Notes: generated from the letters alone by a model not told the origin. Shown: positions 30,565-37,661, counted from the stretch's first letter. The stretch is DNA of 64,000 nucleotides from Actinomadura sp. DC4 (GCF_030406325.1 NZ_JAUEQY010000012.1:62001-126000); one strand, 5' to 3'. Numbers and translations are program-made.

Positions 30565-30671
30565 GCCCGTCCCTCTCAAGTGTTTCCCGGCCATGTTCCT
30601 GCACCGACCCTCTCACAGGCGATCACTTAATGACGACGGACCTGCCATGGTTGCCCAATACCATTGGCGGC

Positions 30672-33251
30672 ATGACAGAAAAGCCGCGCGCACCGGAGAA
30701 ACCCACCCTCGACGGACTCGAGGCCAAGTGGGTACACCTCTGGGACGAGCGCGGCACCTACCGCTTCGACCGTACGAAGGGGCGGGCGGCGATCTATTCG
30801 ATCGACACCCCGCCGCCGACGGTCAGCGGATCTCTTCACGTCGGGCACGTCTTCTCCTACACCCACACGGACGCCGTCGCCCGGTTCCAGCGGATGCGCG
30901 GCCGCGAGGTCTTCTATCCCATCGGCTGGGACGACAACGGCCTGCCGACCGAGCGCCGTGTGCAGAACTACTTCGGCGTCCGCTGCGACCCCTCGCTCCC
31001 GTACGACCCCTCCTTCGAGCCGCCGGACAAGCCGGGCAAGCAGGGCAAGCAGATCCCGGTCTCGCGCCGCAACTTCGTCGAGCTCTGCAACCGGCTCACC
31101 GAGATCGACGAGGAGGCCTTCGAGGACGTCTGGCGGCGCGTCGGGCTCTCGGTCGACTGGTCGCTGCTCTACACGACGATCGGCGAGAGCGCCCGCGCCA
31201 CGGCGCAGCGGGCGTTCCTGCGCAACCTCGCCCGCGGTGAGGCGTACGTCTCCGAGGCGCCGACGCTGTGGGACGTCACCTTCCGCACCGCGGTCGCCCA
31301 GGCCGAGCTGGAGGACCGCGAGCAGCCGGGCGCCTACCACCGCATCCGCTTCCACGCGGACGACCGGCCGGTCTACATCGAGACCACCCGGCCCGAGCTG
31401 CTGCCGGCCTGCGTCGCGCTGGTCGCCCACCCTGACGACGACCGCTACCGCGAGCTGGTCGGCACGACCGTCCGTACGCCGCTGTTCGGCGTCGAGGTGC
31501 CCGTCGTCGCCCACCATCTCGCCGAGCCCGACAAGGGCTCCGGTATCGCCATGATCTGCACCTTCGGCGACCTCACCGACGTGACCTGGTGGCGTGAGCT
31601 GAACCTCCCGACCCGCGCGATCCTCGACTGGCAGGGCCGGATCCTGCCCGAGCCGCCGGACGGCGTCGCGTCCGGCCCGTACGCCGAGCTGGCCGGCAAG
31701 ACCGTGCACTCGGCGCGCGAGCGCGTCACCGAGCTCCTGCGCGAGTCCGGCGACCTGGACGGCGACCCCCGTCCCATCAGCCGGCCGGTGAAGTTCTACG
31801 AGAAGGGCACCAAACCGCTCGAGATCGTCACGACCCGCCAGTGGTACATCCGCAACGGCGGGCGCGACGCCGAGCTGCGCGAACGCCTGCTGGCGCGCGG
31901 CGCCGAGCTGGCCTGGTACCCCCACTACATGAAGGCCCGCTACGACAACTGGGTCGCGGGCCTGGCGGGCGACTGGCTGATCTCGCGGCAGCGGTTCTTC
32001 GGCGTGCCGATCCCGGTCTGGTACCCCGTCGGCGCCGACGGCGAGCCGGTCCACGGCCGGCCGATCACACCGTCGGAGGAGACGCTGCCGGTCGACCCGT
32101 CCTCCGACGTCCCGCCCGGCTACACCGAGGACCAGCGCGGCAAACCGGACGGCTTCATCGGCGATCCGGACGTCATGGACACCTGGGCGACCTCGTCCCT
32201 GACCCCGCAGATCGCGGGCGGCTGGGAGCGCGACCCGGAGCTGTTCGCGGCGGTCTTCCCGTACGACCTGCGTCCGCAGGCGCACGACATCATCCGTACC
32301 TGGCTGTTCTCCACGGTCGTGCGGGCGCACCTCGAGCACGACTCGCTGCCGTGGGCCGGCGCCGCGCTGTCGGGATGGATCCTCGACCCGGACCGCAAGA
32401 AGATGTCCAAGTCCAAGGGCAACGTCGTCACGCCCATGGACCTGCTGACCCAGCACGGCTCCGACGCGGTCCGCTACTGGGCGGCCAGCGGGCGGCTCGG
32501 CACCGACACGGCCTTCGACACCGGGCAGATCAAGGTCGGCCGCCGGCTCGCCATCAAGATCCTCAACGCCTCCAAGTTCGTGCTGGGGCTCGGCGAGGTG
32601 CCGGACGGCACGCCGGTCACCGAGCCGCTCGACCTCGCGATGCTCGCCACGCTCGCCGAGGTGGTCCGCGAGGCCACGACGGCGTTCGAGGCCAACGACT
32701 ACACCCGCTCGCTGGAGCGCACCGAGAGGTTCTTCTGGAACCTCTGCGACGACTACCTCGAACTCGTCAAGGCACGGGCGTATGGCGAGGATGGCGAGGA
32801 TGGCGAGGATGGCGAGGATGGCGAGGATGGCGAGGACGGCGCCGACCAGAGCGCGGCGGCGTCGGCGCGCGCGGCCCTGCGTGAGGCGCTGTCGGTCGTG
32901 CTGCGGCTCTTCGCGCCGATCCTGCCCTACGTCACCGAAGAGGTCTGGTCGTGGTGGCAGGAGGGCTCGGTGCACCGCGCCGCCTGGCCGGACGCCGGCG
33001 CGCTGCCCGCGGGCGGCGATCCGGCGGTGCTGGCCGCCACCTCCGACGTCCTGCGCCAGGTCCGCCGCGCCAAGTCCGCGGCGAAGGTCTCGATGCGGGC
33101 CGAGGTCGAACGCGCCGCGGTCCGCGGCGCCGACGTGGCCAGGCTCGCCGAGCCGGACCTGCGGGCCGCCGGTCGCATCGCCGACCTGGAGCTGGCGACG
33201 GTGCCGGAAGAGGGCTTCACCGTCGACGTCACCCTGGCGCCGGCCGAGTGA
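30672..33251 (+). CDS. valS: Valyl-tRNA synthetase, archaeal-like type
   Basis: The 859-aa class I synthetase charges tRNA-Val. HIGH-like motif: PPTVSGSLHVGHVFSYTHTD. KMSKS motif: DRKKMSKSKGNVVTP. The editing domain lies between them. The sequence GWDDNGLPTERRVQNYFGV is typical of the shorter, archaeal-like ValRS lineage, not the PPPNVTGSLHIGH type common in bacteria; this is a judgement from motifs. Six GED repeats (residues about 705-722) come from a 9-bp tandem repeat. The start ATG 30672 was chosen by homology. Its stop overlaps the GTG of the next gene. Confidence 0.93.
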   Translation: MTEKPRAPEKPTLDGLEAKWVHLWDERGTYRFDRTKGRAAIYSIDTPPPTVSGSLHVGHVFSYTHTDAVARFQRMRGREVFYPIGWDDNGLPTERRVQNYFGVRCDPSLPYDPSFEPPDKPGKQGKQIPVSRRNFVELCNRLTEIDEEAFEDVWRRVGLSVDWSLLYTTIGESARATAQRAFLRNLARGEAYVSEAPTLWDVTFRTAVAQAELEDREQPGAYHRIRFHADDRPVYIETTRPELLPACVALVAHPDDDRYRELVGTTVRTPLFGVEVPVVAHHLAEPDKGSGIAMICTFGDLTDVTWWRELNLPTRAILDWQGRILPEPPDGVASGPYAELAGKTVHSARERVTELLRESGDLDGDPRPISRPVKFYEKGTKPLEIVTTRQWYIRNGGRDAELRERLLARGAELAWYPHYMKARYDNWVAGLAGDWLISRQRFFGVPIPVWYPVGADGEPVHGRPITPSEETLPVDPSSDVPPGYTEDQRGKPDGFIGDPDVMDTWATSSLTPQIAGGWERDPELFAAVFPYDLRPQAHDIIRTWLFSTVVRAHLEHDSLPWAGAALSGWILDPDRKKMSKSKGNVVTPMDLLTQHGSDAVRYWAASGRLGTDTAFDTGQIKVGRRLAIKILNASKFVLGLGEVPDGTPVTEPLDLAMLATLAEVVREATTAFEANDYTRSLERTERFFWNLCDDYLELVKARAYGEDGEDGEDGEDGEDGEDGADQSAAASARAALREALSVVLRLFAPILPYVTEEVWSWWQEGSVHRAAWPDAGALPAGGDPAVLAATSDVLRQVRRAKSAAKVSMRAEVERAAVRGADVARLAEPDLRAAGRIADLELATVPEEGFTVDVTLAPAE
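32784..32837 (+). repeat. 9-bp tandem repeat inside valS
   Basis: Five perfect copies and one variant of GGCGAGGAT lie head to tail in frame, coding for (Gly-Glu-Asp)6. Such arrays change copy number by replication slippage; each step adds or removes three residues without a frameshift. It falls in the C-terminal helical part after the anticodon-binding domain starts. Confidence 0.95.
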
Positions 33252-34537: not shown

Positions 34538-35095
34538 TCAGCCCAGCAGGAGGAGCGCCAGGGCGGCCAGCACGGTCACGCCGATCGCGTTGGTCACCAG
34601 GGGCATCCGGATCAGGCGGCGGTCGTCCCATTCGTCGTGGCGGCTCGCGTACCGGACCGTCGCCGTCACCGCGCGGCCCACCCCGAAACCGGTGCCCGTC
34701 AGGATCGTGGTGGCCGGCCCCTGGTGGCCGAGCAGCAATCCGAGCGCCACGACGTACGGGGCGCTGGCGGAGACGAAGGTTCGCACGCCGGTGCCGAGTT
34801 CGAAGCCGAACTGCAGGGCGCCCCGCCGGATCTTGTACTGCAGCACCTCCTGCGGGATCTGCCGGGCGTTCTGCGGCATCGGGATGCGCACCCAGCCGGC
34901 CTCGCGCGCGACGCCGAGGACCGCGACGGCAAGGATCGCGCCGGTGCGCACGGGCCCGGGTACGGGTGCGGCGAAGCCGGACAGCAGCCACAGCACGGTC
35001 GCGCTGAGCGTGCCCCCGAGCAGCAGCCCGAGGGTGAAGACGGCCAGGACCTCGCCCTGCCGTACGGGTGCCCGCCAACCTGGCGAGAACAGCAC
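34538..35095 (-). CDS. Polytopic membrane protein of the Cys-rich/Mau-like operon
   Basis: The 185-aa protein has four or five hydrophobic segments (about residues 15-40, 47-60, 108-123, 128-145 and 165-185). Between them lies the polar motif PMPQNARQIPQEVLQYKIRRGALQFGFELGTG. No known family is recognised. The start is GTG 35095, 18 bp after the 58-aa gene, with no clear ribosome site, so coupling to upstream translation is likely. It is the last gene of the six-gene operon (37661 to 34538). It may help insert or export the Cys-rich product, which is speculation. Confidence 0.7.
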   Translation of the reverse strand: MLFSPGWRAPVRQGEVLAVFTLGLLLGGTLSATVLWLLSGFAAPVPGPVRTGAILAVAVLGVAREAGWVRIPMPQNARQIPQEVLQYKIRRGALQFGFELGTGVRTFVSASAPYVVALGLLLGHQGPATTILTGTGFGVGRAVTATVRYASRHDEWDDRRLIRMPLVTNAIGVTVLAALALLLLG

Positions 35096-35113
35096 GAAAT
35101 CGCTGTTACGCGT

Positions 35114-35290
35114 TCAAACCGAGCCGGAGAGCGAGTAGCCCGCGAGCGCGCCGACCGAGGCCCAGCACAGGACGACCTGGCCGGCCGCCGCCGCCGCGAC
35201 GGCCAGCAGGGCCAGCACGGCGAACGGCAGCAACGGCTCGGTCAGCCCCCGGCGCAGGCGCCCCGCGGGCCTGGTCTCAGCTGCAGGCAT
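35114..35290 (-). CDS. Small membrane protein, 58 aa
   Basis: The ATG at 35290 opens a frame MPAAETRPAGRLRRGLTEP, then a hydrophobic stretch LLPFAVLALLAVAAAAAGQVVLCW and an ending GYSLSGSV. It overlaps the 3' end of the Cys-rich gene by 14 bp in another frame, so it is translationally coupled. It has one or two membrane helices and a single Cys. Its size makes it easy to miss. No family is recognised. Confidence 0.6.
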   Translation of the reverse strand: MPAAETRPAGRLRRGLTEPLLPFAVLALLAVAAAAAGQVVLCWASVGALAGYSLSGSV

Positions 35291-35861
35291 ACGCCCACCG
35301 GCAGATGGACTTGTACCAGCTTCCGGCCGCGCTCTTCGTCCAGCCGTCGTGGCACCGCCAGGTCACCGAGGTCGCGCAGTTGCCGCAGGGATTCGCGTAG
35401 TGCCAGATCCAGCCGTCGTACTTGCTCCCGTAGCACTCGTTCGGCCGCAGCTTGTACTGGCCCGGGTTCGAGACACCGGACTTGTGGTAGCCCTTGTACG
35501 TCCCGCTCGTCCGGCAGGCGGTGGACACGACCGTGCTGGGCCCGCAGCCGGGGGAGCAGTTGTGATCCGAGGCGTACGACGGGCACGTGGGGTAGATGTC
35601 GTAGTAGCCCGGCGTCAGCCCCTTCGTGTAGGGACCCGGAGTCCAGCCCTTGGTGCCGTACCCCGAGGCCAGGGCCTTGCGCGCCGGGGTGAAGACCCCG
35701 ATGGCGGCCAGCCCGGCCGTCGTGCCCGCGGCGACCGCGCCGCCGAGCATGGACCGGCGGCCGACGCCCACGGCGGTCGCCGCGGGGGCGCGTCGGCGCA
35801 CCCGCTCCGCGCCTTCGGGCCGGGGCCCGCGCAGTGGCGGTATCTGGTCGAGTTCGAGCAT
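35277..35861 (-). CDS. Tat-exported ten-cysteine protein
   Basis: The 194-aa protein has a long N-region and a twin-arginine-like signal, VGRRSMLGGAVAAGTTAGLAAIGVFTPARKALA (RR at 35-36, cleavage near 65). The mature part is rich in Gly, Tyr, Trp and Cys, with Cys at 93, 102, 106, 116, 143, 159, 162, 170, 187 and 193, enough for five disulfides. A CGNC motif lies at 159-162. It resembles methylamine dehydrogenase light chain in being Tat-exported and Cys-dense, but I see no convincing sequence match. ATG 35861 follows AGGAGGGG; ATG 35912, overlapping the previous stop, is the alternative. Function unknown. Confidence 0.85.
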   Translation of the reverse strand: MLELDQIPPLRGPRPEGAERVRRRAPAATAVGVGRRSMLGGAVAAGTTAGLAAIGVFTPARKALASGYGTKGWTPGPYTKGLTPGYYDIYPTCPSYASDHNCSPGCGPSTVVSTACRTSGTYKGYHKSGVSNPGQYKLRPNECYGSKYDGWIWHYANPCGNCATSVTWRCHDGWTKSAAGSWYKSICRWAYACS

Positions 35862-35908
35862 GTCCCCTCCTGGTTCCTCCGGCGGACCTGCGGTTCGCCC
35901 GTGCCCTG

Positions 35909-36424
35909 TCATCGCGCGCTGCCGAGCTCGGCGTCGTCGCGCAGCCGCCCGCCCATCTGGGCGACCAGCTCGCGCAGACCGCGTACGGAGCCGACCGGCT
36001 CGGCCGTGCGCACCCGGCCGTCCGCCCCGACGATCACCCCGTACGGCGTGGCCGGCACCTGGTAGTCGGTGAAGAGTTCCTGGCGGCCGGTCAGGACGCG
36101 CATGCCGTCGGGCGGCACGGCCTCGATCGCCGCCCCGGCGAAGACCGCCCTGGTCGCCGGGCCGCCGTCGATGCCGAGCGCCTCCTCGAAGACGTCGTGG
36201 CAGACCGGGCAGTCCTCGCTCAGGAACAGCAGGAGGGTCGCCCGGCCCGGTTCGATCCCGAGCACGTCCGGGGCGGGCGCGGGGGCGCCGGCCGGCAGCC
36301 CGAGCTCCCGCGTGCGGGGCCCCTGCGTGAGCTGGTGCACCTGGCGCACCAGCCCGGCCACGACCAGCGCGAGCAGCACGAGGGCCACCCAGGTCACCAG
36401 CAGTGCGGTGGTCTCGAAGCTCAT
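35909..36424 (-). CDS. MauD-like membrane-anchored thioredoxin
   Basis: The 171-aa protein has one N-terminal membrane helix (residues 7-27). A thioredoxin fold follows, with active site EDCPVCHDVF (CPVC at 72-75), a cis-Pro region VPATPYGVIVGADGRV and a closing helix. This matches MauD, which assists disulfide formation in the methylamine dehydrogenase light chain. The thiol site should face outside. Its ATG overlaps the stop of the MauE-like gene (TGATG), and the Cys-rich gene comes next, so it likely oxidises or isomerises that product. Confidence 0.88.
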   Translation of the reverse strand: MSFETTALLVTWVALVLLALVVAGLVRQVHQLTQGPRTRELGLPAGAPAPAPDVLGIEPGRATLLLFLSEDCPVCHDVFEEALGIDGGPATRAVFAGAAIEAVPPDGMRVLTGRQELFTDYQVPATPYGVIVGADGRVRTAEPVGSVRGLRELVAQMGGRLRDDAELGSAR

Positions 36425-36966
36425 CAGGCGGGCCGCCTTTCAGGGTCGAACATGGCCTGCGGCAGCAGCGAGAGCAGCACCGCGAACACGACGGAGGACA
36501 GGAGGAGGACGGCGACGTGCGTGCCGTGGGAGCCCGTCGCGGGCCCCGACCCGGCGGCCGCGGCCACCGAGGCCAGCGCGAGCGCGGTGGCGCGTCCGGG
36601 CACCCAGCCGGTCATCGGCGCGTCGCCGCCCGGCCCGGTCGCGCATCCGCACGGCACGCTCGGCCGGGTGCGCAGGACGTACAGGGCGTACGCCGCGTAC
36701 AGCGCGAGCAGGACCGCGGCGCCGCTCGCCGCGAGGGTGAGAAGGTGCGCGCGCCCGGCGACCAGCGCGTAGCCGGTACCCGCCCCGAGCACCCCTTCGA
36801 GCACCGCGGCGGCGACCGCGACCGCCCACCGCAGCGGACCCGGCACGACACGGTGGGCGGCCAGTGCGGCCGGCAGCGTACGCGGGGCGCGCAGGTGCCC
36901 GGCGAACGCCGCGAGGAGGACGAGTGCGACGGTTCCCGCGCAGACGCCCGTGAGCAGCTCCGCCAT
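36424..36966 (-). CDS. MauE/DoxX-like redox membrane protein
   Basis: The 180-aa protein has four membrane helices (about residues 6-25, 46-65, 73-97 and 145-170). It carries a CGC motif in the loop (SVPCGCATGPGGD), characteristic of MauE-type proteins that pass redox equivalents across the membrane. It starts one base inside the stop of the 231-aa gene and its stop overlaps the MauD-like start. MauE and MauD work together in methylamine utilisation; here no mau catalytic subunit is adjacent. Confidence 0.88.
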   Translation of the reverse strand: MAELLTGVCAGTVALVLLAAFAGHLRAPRTLPAALAAHRVVPGPLRWAVAVAAAVLEGVLGAGTGYALVAGRAHLLTLAASGAAVLLALYAAYALYVLRTRPSVPCGCATGPGGDAPMTGWVPGRATALALASVAAAAGSGPATGSHGTHVAVLLLSSVVFAVLLSLLPQAMFDPERRPA

Positions 36967-37661
36967 CAGGAGACGGTCTCGACCTTGAGCGCGCCGAGGC
37001 GCGACGCCACCTTGGGGGCCTCGCCCTCGTGCGGCAGCACGGTGACCATCGCGGTCGGGGTGGCGAGCAGGAAGTAGGTGCTGTCGTCGTCGAGTGTGTC
37101 GCGGAACAGCTCACCGTGCGGGAGACGGGCGCCGTGCCAGGAGGGCAGCCGCCGCGCGGTCGTCTTGTTCAGCGCCGTCATCTCCAGCAGGCCGATCCCG
37201 GGCACCTCCTTGGCGAGCTCGGAGGGCTCGGCGAGGCCGGCGCGCCTGGGGTTGCGCGAGGCGACGGTGAGGCCGTCGTCGTGCTCGGTCACGCCGAGGA
37301 GCTGGAAGACCCGTACGGCGTCGGCGGGCTTGGCGTTGTACATCGGGACGAACAGCGAGTACCGCTTGCCCTGCCACACGACGGCGAGCAACTGGTCCTC
37401 CAGCCCGGACCGCTTGTCGTAGTCGGTGACCCGGGTGGTCCGCAATCGCCCGTGCGGCAGGGAGAACTCGTCGTCGAACTTCCGGATGCCCAGGTCACCG
37501 GCCCAGCCGCCGGCGACGTCGTGGACTCCGGAGGTGAGCTCGTAGAGCCTGCCGTCGACCGCGTAGCGCGCCACGGAGCTGAACGGATGGGTGAGGTCGA
37601 GGTCGCCGGAGATGTGGAAGCGATACCCGTCGAGGGCTCGGTGAACAACGCTCTTGGCCAT
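36966..37661 (-). CDS. Hypothetical protein, first gene of the Cys-rich operon
   Basis: The 231-aa protein starts at ATG 37661 after GGGAGG. It has no signal peptide or membrane helix and no Cys. Sequence is mostly alternating polar and hydrophobic residues (beta-rich), with segments such as YRFHISGDLDLTHPFSSVARYAVDGRLYELTSG and YSLFVPMYNAKPADAVRVF. I do not recognise a family. It heads the operon, coupled to MauE by a TGATG overlap, so it is probably a dedicated cytosolic partner of the system. Confidence 0.75.
   Translation of the reverse strand: MAKSVVHRALDGYRFHISGDLDLTHPFSSVARYAVDGRLYELTSGVHDVAGGWAGDLGIRKFDDEFSLPHGRLRTTRVTDYDKRSGLEDQLLAVVWQGKRYSLFVPMYNAKPADAVRVFQLLGVTEHDDGLTVASRNPRRAGLAEPSELAKEVPGIGLLEMTALNKTTARRLPSWHGARLPHGELFRDTLDDDSTYFLLATPTAMVTVLPHEGEAPKVASRLGALKVETVS

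Follow-up and report, generated by a model that had tools for sequence, protein, structure and literature searches.

In the mau gene cluster for methylamine utilization, MauE is believed to help form the disulfides of the light chain of methylamine dehydrogenase (MADH) (as cited in PMC7794033). The same paper described decRiPPter clusters of Streptomyces in which mauE, in one of them together with mauD, lies beside a gene whose product has at least eight Cys, with no other mau genes (PMC7794033). For bacterial selenoproteins, rules for the bSECIS hairpin have been published, and a 2026 catalogue lists 119 prokaryotic selenoprotein families, none of which is MauF (PMC13188914).

The window analysed here is the whole stretch of 64,000 nt from Actinomadura sp. 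DC4 (GCF_030406325.1, NZ_JAUEQY010000012.1:62001-126000), and the closest relatives of its DNA in the collections belong to Actinoallomurus and Actinomadura. A sequence-only reading had described a six-gene operon in it (Table 1). The operon is real and its genes lie where they had been placed, but it contains five genes, as the last two, read as a membrane peptide of 58 aa and a membrane protein of 185 aa, lie in a single frame interrupted by one TGA and form one gene, denoted EF. The 231-aa gene A, the MauE-like gene with CGC (PF07291) and the MauD-like gene with CPVC (TIGR02661, below cut-off) were recovered as described.

Table 1. Features of the operon and of the region downstream of the in-frame TGA, in window coordinates
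Feature	Position	Strand	Basis
Gene A, 231 aa, first gene of the operon	36966..37661	-	ORF; no Pfam or NCBIfam match, no known family
Gene B, MauE-like membrane protein, vicinal CGC	36424..36966	-	Pfam PF07291, E 6.9e-13, over cut-off
Gene C, MauD-like membrane-anchored thioredoxin-fold protein, CPVC	35909..36424	-	TIGR02661 and hhalign
Gene D, Tat-signal Cys-rich protein, 194 aa, 10 Cys	35277..35861	-	ORF, alignments
EF, putative selenocysteine MauF homologue, 250 residues, Sec59	34538..35290	-	Frame, conserved TGA, hhalign
In-frame TGA inside EF, inferred Sec codon	35114..35116	-	Conserved in homologues
Hairpin H1, AACAGC/GCUGUU	35088..35107	-	3′ of UGA
SECIS-type hairpin H2, stem CUCGCCA/UGGCGGG, GGU in apical loop	35071..35087	-	Covariation

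The sequence-only reading had proposed a comparison of gene neighbourhoods, and there the Cys-rich gene kept its partners: it was found together with both halves of EF at 47 of 47 loci from Actinoallomurus, Actinomadura and Spirillospora, and all parts of the operon occurred in identical order at 41 of these. Four of the remaining six loci begin at or near a contig end, and in two the MauE gene is under the search threshold. This conservation far exceeds chance. Gene A homologues take the first position in nearly all related operons. Gene C matches the MauD model TIGR02661 with E 3.7e-6, far below the cut-off of this model, whereas profile comparison with true MauD by hhalign gives a convincing E of 4.7e-11, and an alignment shows the CxxC motif and the Pro preceding strand 4 to be invariant. 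The Tat-signal protein has exactly 10 Cys, as had been read, and all ten are invariant in 36 sequences of close relatives; distant relatives conserve six Cys and a WxW motif, which is invariant in the family. Pfam TAT_signal matched 6 of 17 family members, a sequence search of the family against solved structures returned Tat signals only, and the AlphaFold model of the Cys-rich protein is of low quality (pLDDT 33.5).

In distant relatives the set consists of A, the MauD-like protein, the Tat-signal Cys-rich protein and EF, plus either MauE or a small CxxC protein. At loci L100, L106 and L109-L111, a protein of ~105 aa with a YDSSCGGCS motif and no Pfam match is encoded directly 3′ of EF, at the usual place of MauE. 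An ECF-type sigma factor gene, usually with a probable anti-sigma gene, adjoins the EF operons of L097, L108, L114, L142, L145 and L146, and envelope-stress control of these operons is possible. Elsewhere in the window, a tandem GED-repeat tract (32780-32815) lies within a valyl-tRNA synthetase-like gene (30630-33251).

The two ORFs of EF are separated by the TGA (35116-35114) and six codons. Their spacing, the TGA and its flanks (LSGSV-*-TRNSESVLFSPGWR) are kept in all relatives, and the residues TRNSExxLFSPGWR past the TGA are retained while the Ser codon shifts from AGC to TCG. In L019 and L057 the conserved Ser 3′ of the TGA is encoded by TCG in place of AGC, which shows that the residue past this codon is under selection. 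A search with the read-through EF protein in 343 genomes of one family gave convincing matches in 107, where each full match, including those of 32-40% identity, contained one TGA; the matches that lacked it were partial. Judged from these alignments, one conserved gene of 250 codons spans the TGA. No Cys version of EF was seen within the Streptosporangiaceae-type family, and Sec/Cys pairs came from a more distant branch. In one Actinomadura-type genome with tRNA-Sec, EF can be recognised over its first ~33 residues only (G270:C1:2093583-2093681), possibly a gene remnant. Plasmid records contained one weak EF relative, in an 11.9-Mb Nonomuraea entry. The AlphaFold model of EF is of low quality (pLDDT 54).

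Two hairpins follow the UGA. The position of H1 slides by 2 nt between clades, together with the Ser codon. H2 begins 26 nt past the UGA, and in 39 sequences all seven of its pairs are formed in every one (100% of cells), compared with a pairing of only 37-49% at slid control positions. Two pairs change on both sides, one of them the loop-closing pair (A-U/G-U/G-C). Diversity at third codon positions is 0.125 over the 22 codons that follow the UGA and 0.440 elsewhere (p 7e-5). H2 agrees with the published bSECIS rules (PMC13188914) in its stem of 6-7 bp, its loop AGGUU/GGUCU, the 32 nt between the UGA and this GGU-type loop, and its energy of -9.4 kcal/mol. In the host gene for a Sec-type formate dehydrogenase, the hairpin 3′ of the UGA has the loop GGUCU, which is also that of distant EF homologues. 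Folding of the whole region gave no excess stability (z -0.53), and the evidence for the hairpin thus rests on covariation.

The host genome contains the genes for selenocysteine synthesis and insertion, as judged from sequence: tRNA-Sec (selC) scored 74.6 bits, SelB was over the model cut-off, and selA and selD were recognised from their sequences and not by a model. Among the 343 sampled genomes of one family, tRNA-Sec was present in 107 of 107 with EF and in 112 of 236 without, in a test that ignores phylogeny, by which its significance is inflated. Moreover, tRNA-Sec lies within 12 kb of at least 23 of 122 EF loci (in 22 genomes), where about 0.4 would be expected; this count is a lower bound, since only best-scoring tRNA matches were used. 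At several of the linked loci, e.g. L143, L146 and L148, selA, selB and selD also adjoin EF. Across L103, L141-L143 and L145-L149, tRNA-Sec and some or all of selA, selB and selD are found beside the EF operon, and the tRNA-Sec next to EF is often additional to another one elsewhere in the genome. This arrangement looks like a portable selenocysteine module.

EF had no match among Pfam and NCBIfam models, selenoprotein models included, and nothing was found among the sequences of solved structures. By hhalign, EF aligns with MauF over 158 columns (probability 97.1, E 6.8e-11), EF with a sister SPUG family at E 4.3e-17, and this sister family with MauF at E 7.9e-17, all E-values being those of single comparisons and not of a database search. 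Sec59 of EF aligns with the Cys of the SPC motif of MauF, which is the only invariant Cys across five MauF sequences. These comparisons show EF to be a MauF homologue with a UGA at the position of this Cys; the third mau maturase, present as the split gene, was missed in the sequence-only reading. At the Sec site, MauF of Paracoccus has STWSPCGY, which is absent from EF with its SGSVUxxNS, and we therefore call EF a MauF homologue and not MauF itself. Taken together, the homology and the predicted Sec at the SPC Cys argue for a selenocysteine MauF.

The sister family was found by a profile search of the phylum. Its annotated members are shortened because their open frames begin after the UGA, just past the TGA in RSSWSP-TGA-GxSMLxSIxP, and the family had no match among NCBIfam models. 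The SPC site is TGA in seven members from other actinobacterial classes (L154, L156-L158, L161-L163), whose genomes have a clear tRNA-Sec (56 bits or more), and TGC (Cys) in two (L155, L160), whose tRNA-Sec scores of 46-49 bits are borderline and in the range of other tRNAs. Sister-family operons encode MauE-like and MauD-like proteins and MauF(U), and their Tat protein contains 18 Cys as well as LGFP repeats. In a third variant (L108:8187-11404), a MauF-like gene lies beside genes for a 12-Cys Tat protein, a MauE-like and a MauD-like protein. This L108 paralogue was considered as a non-Sec version and rejected, as it too carries TGA at the corresponding position, two codons before 10317.

We infer from these data that the UGA of EF is decoded as selenocysteine, inserted by SelB. 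If the UGA were instead a true stop, a 58-aa peptide would be made and a separate 185-aa membrane protein re-initiated at the GTG six codons on, which is how automatic gene finders also divide EF. Indeed, GTG or a similar start is found 6-7 codons after the UGA in 51 of 78 closely read homologues. None of these starts has a Shine-Dalgarno sequence, however, and in the other 27 the first 15 codons after the UGA contain no start at all. The codon is TGA in all 78 and never TAA or TAG, amino-acid conservation extends over the stretch from the UGA to the start, and distant relatives align with MauF across the site as one protein, so that we consider termination very unlikely. An ordinary tRNA, e.g. 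tRNA-Trp, could also read the UGA and yield a selenium-free isoform extended at the C terminus, which would account for the conservation of both halves and of the RNA structure downstream. This seems extremely improbable given the perfect co-occurrence with tRNA-Sec, the physical linkage to selA, selB, selC and selD, a hairpin that follows the bSECIS rules with the loop type of the host formate dehydrogenase SECIS, and homologues with Cys at the UGA site.

What stays constant across the variants is the set of MauD, MauE, MauF(U) and a Cys-rich protein exported by Tat, and this favours a role of the membrane proteins in maturing their Cys-rich partner. The operon of MauE, MauD, MauF(U), the ten-Cys Tat protein and protein A is thus probably a version of the mau maturation machinery that uses selenocysteine. 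In the proposed mechanism, SelB would insert Sec at the UGA of EF, and the membrane-embedded Sec59 would exchange with the thiols of MauE CGC and MauD CPVC, by which the disulfides of the Cys-rich protein may be formed or shuffled outside the membrane; this role is modelled on that proposed for MauE and MauD with the MADH light chain. Among possible functions, maturing the disulfides of the Cys-rich protein has the best support, and we infer it by stepping from co-occurrence to function.

Two other readings of the operon concern the fate of the Cys-rich protein. It might be a precursor in a RiPP-type cluster, modified by MauE, MauD and MauF(U) and then cleaved to a bioactive peptide, as was proposed by decRiPPter for Streptomyces mauE/mauD clusters with precursors of 8 or more Cys (PMC7794033). 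We regard this as unlikely: the Tat signal and the Cys-rich domain of 130 residues, in which 10 Cys are invariant, point rather to a folded protein, the Tat protein of the sister system bears LGFP repeats, and no dedicated protease or transporter was seen among the operon ORFs read. The gene content mauF-E-D-A and the invariant WxW would fit an MADH-like quinoprotein system, whose light chain, carrying a cofactor derived from tryptophan, would be the Cys-rich protein. A likeness to the MADH light chain had been raised in the sequence-only reading, but homology does not extend beyond the Tat signal: as a candidate MauA homologue the protein was rejected, since hhalign aligns only this signal, and TIGR02659 (MADH light chain) gave no match in a search run without a positive control. 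That reading had also seen no MADH heavy chain, in agreement with TIGR02658 (MauB), which finds nothing genome-wide, although control genomes were poor, with only one weak positive. Neither mauG nor mauJ occurs in the neighbourhoods read, and a quinoprotein system is therefore most improbable. The further suggestion, that this redox machinery acts on a different secreted product, is reasonable, because MauD- and MauE-like genes travel with the Cys-rich protein in all relatives and no heavy chain was found; a form of the idea had appeared earlier for the Streptomyces clusters (PMC7794033).

Extending the preferred disulfide-maturation reading, the chances seem about even that a large Sec-MauF superfamily, so far unannotated and with at least three branches in several actinobacterial classes, runs selenium-dependent disulfide maturation of secreted Cys-rich proteins and that, in some bacteria, it accounts for the presence and transfer of the Sec machinery, as selA, selB, selC and selD travel with it. 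EF is found in 107 of 343 genomes sampled from one family and beyond that family as well. If true, it would be a new membrane selenoprotein family, overlooked because annotation pipelines cut the gene in two, and would explain why many aerobic soil actinomycetes use selenium. The long-unclear function of MauF would be pinned to one redox residue, testable by mutation, and MauF-U, MauE, MauD and the substrate would form a matched set for studying the disulfides of Cys-rich Tat substrates.

The link between a selenoprotein and MauF appears to be new: we found no report of selenocysteine with methylamine utilization, or of a selenoprotein with MauE or in Actinomadura, in a search that most subscription journals lay outside. 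The pattern of MauE/MauD with a Cys-rich peptide has precedent (PMC7794033), and those Streptomyces clusters resemble the EF operon in having mauE/mauD next to the gene for a Cys-rich protein, whereas PMC7794033 mentions neither selenium nor a Tat signal. Known bacterial selenoproteins share with EF the UGA, the bSECIS and selABCD, and include membrane or thiol-redox members, e.g. TsoB and YeeE/YedE. Among CcdA/DsbD carriers (PF13386, PF02683), the sister SPUG protein matches DsbD_2 weakly (E 0.0021, below cut-off), and the SPC motif in the first helix is a further likeness; in contrast to these carriers, EF and SPUG have one conserved chalcogen residue and not two, and EF itself has no match. 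The closest described protein is MauF of Paracoccus denitrificans (L164:1434-2267), homologous to EF over ~160-190 residues, with which EF shares the PQxxxQVP and G-rich transmembrane motifs, MauE and MauD as neighbours, and one invariant Cys/Sec at the same place. EF differs from it by the predicted Sec for Cys and by SGSVU in place of STWSPC, i.e. Ser-Gly-Ser-Val before Sec instead of Ser-Pro, and the EF operon differs from mau in its lack of MauB, MauG, MauJ or amicyanin neighbours.
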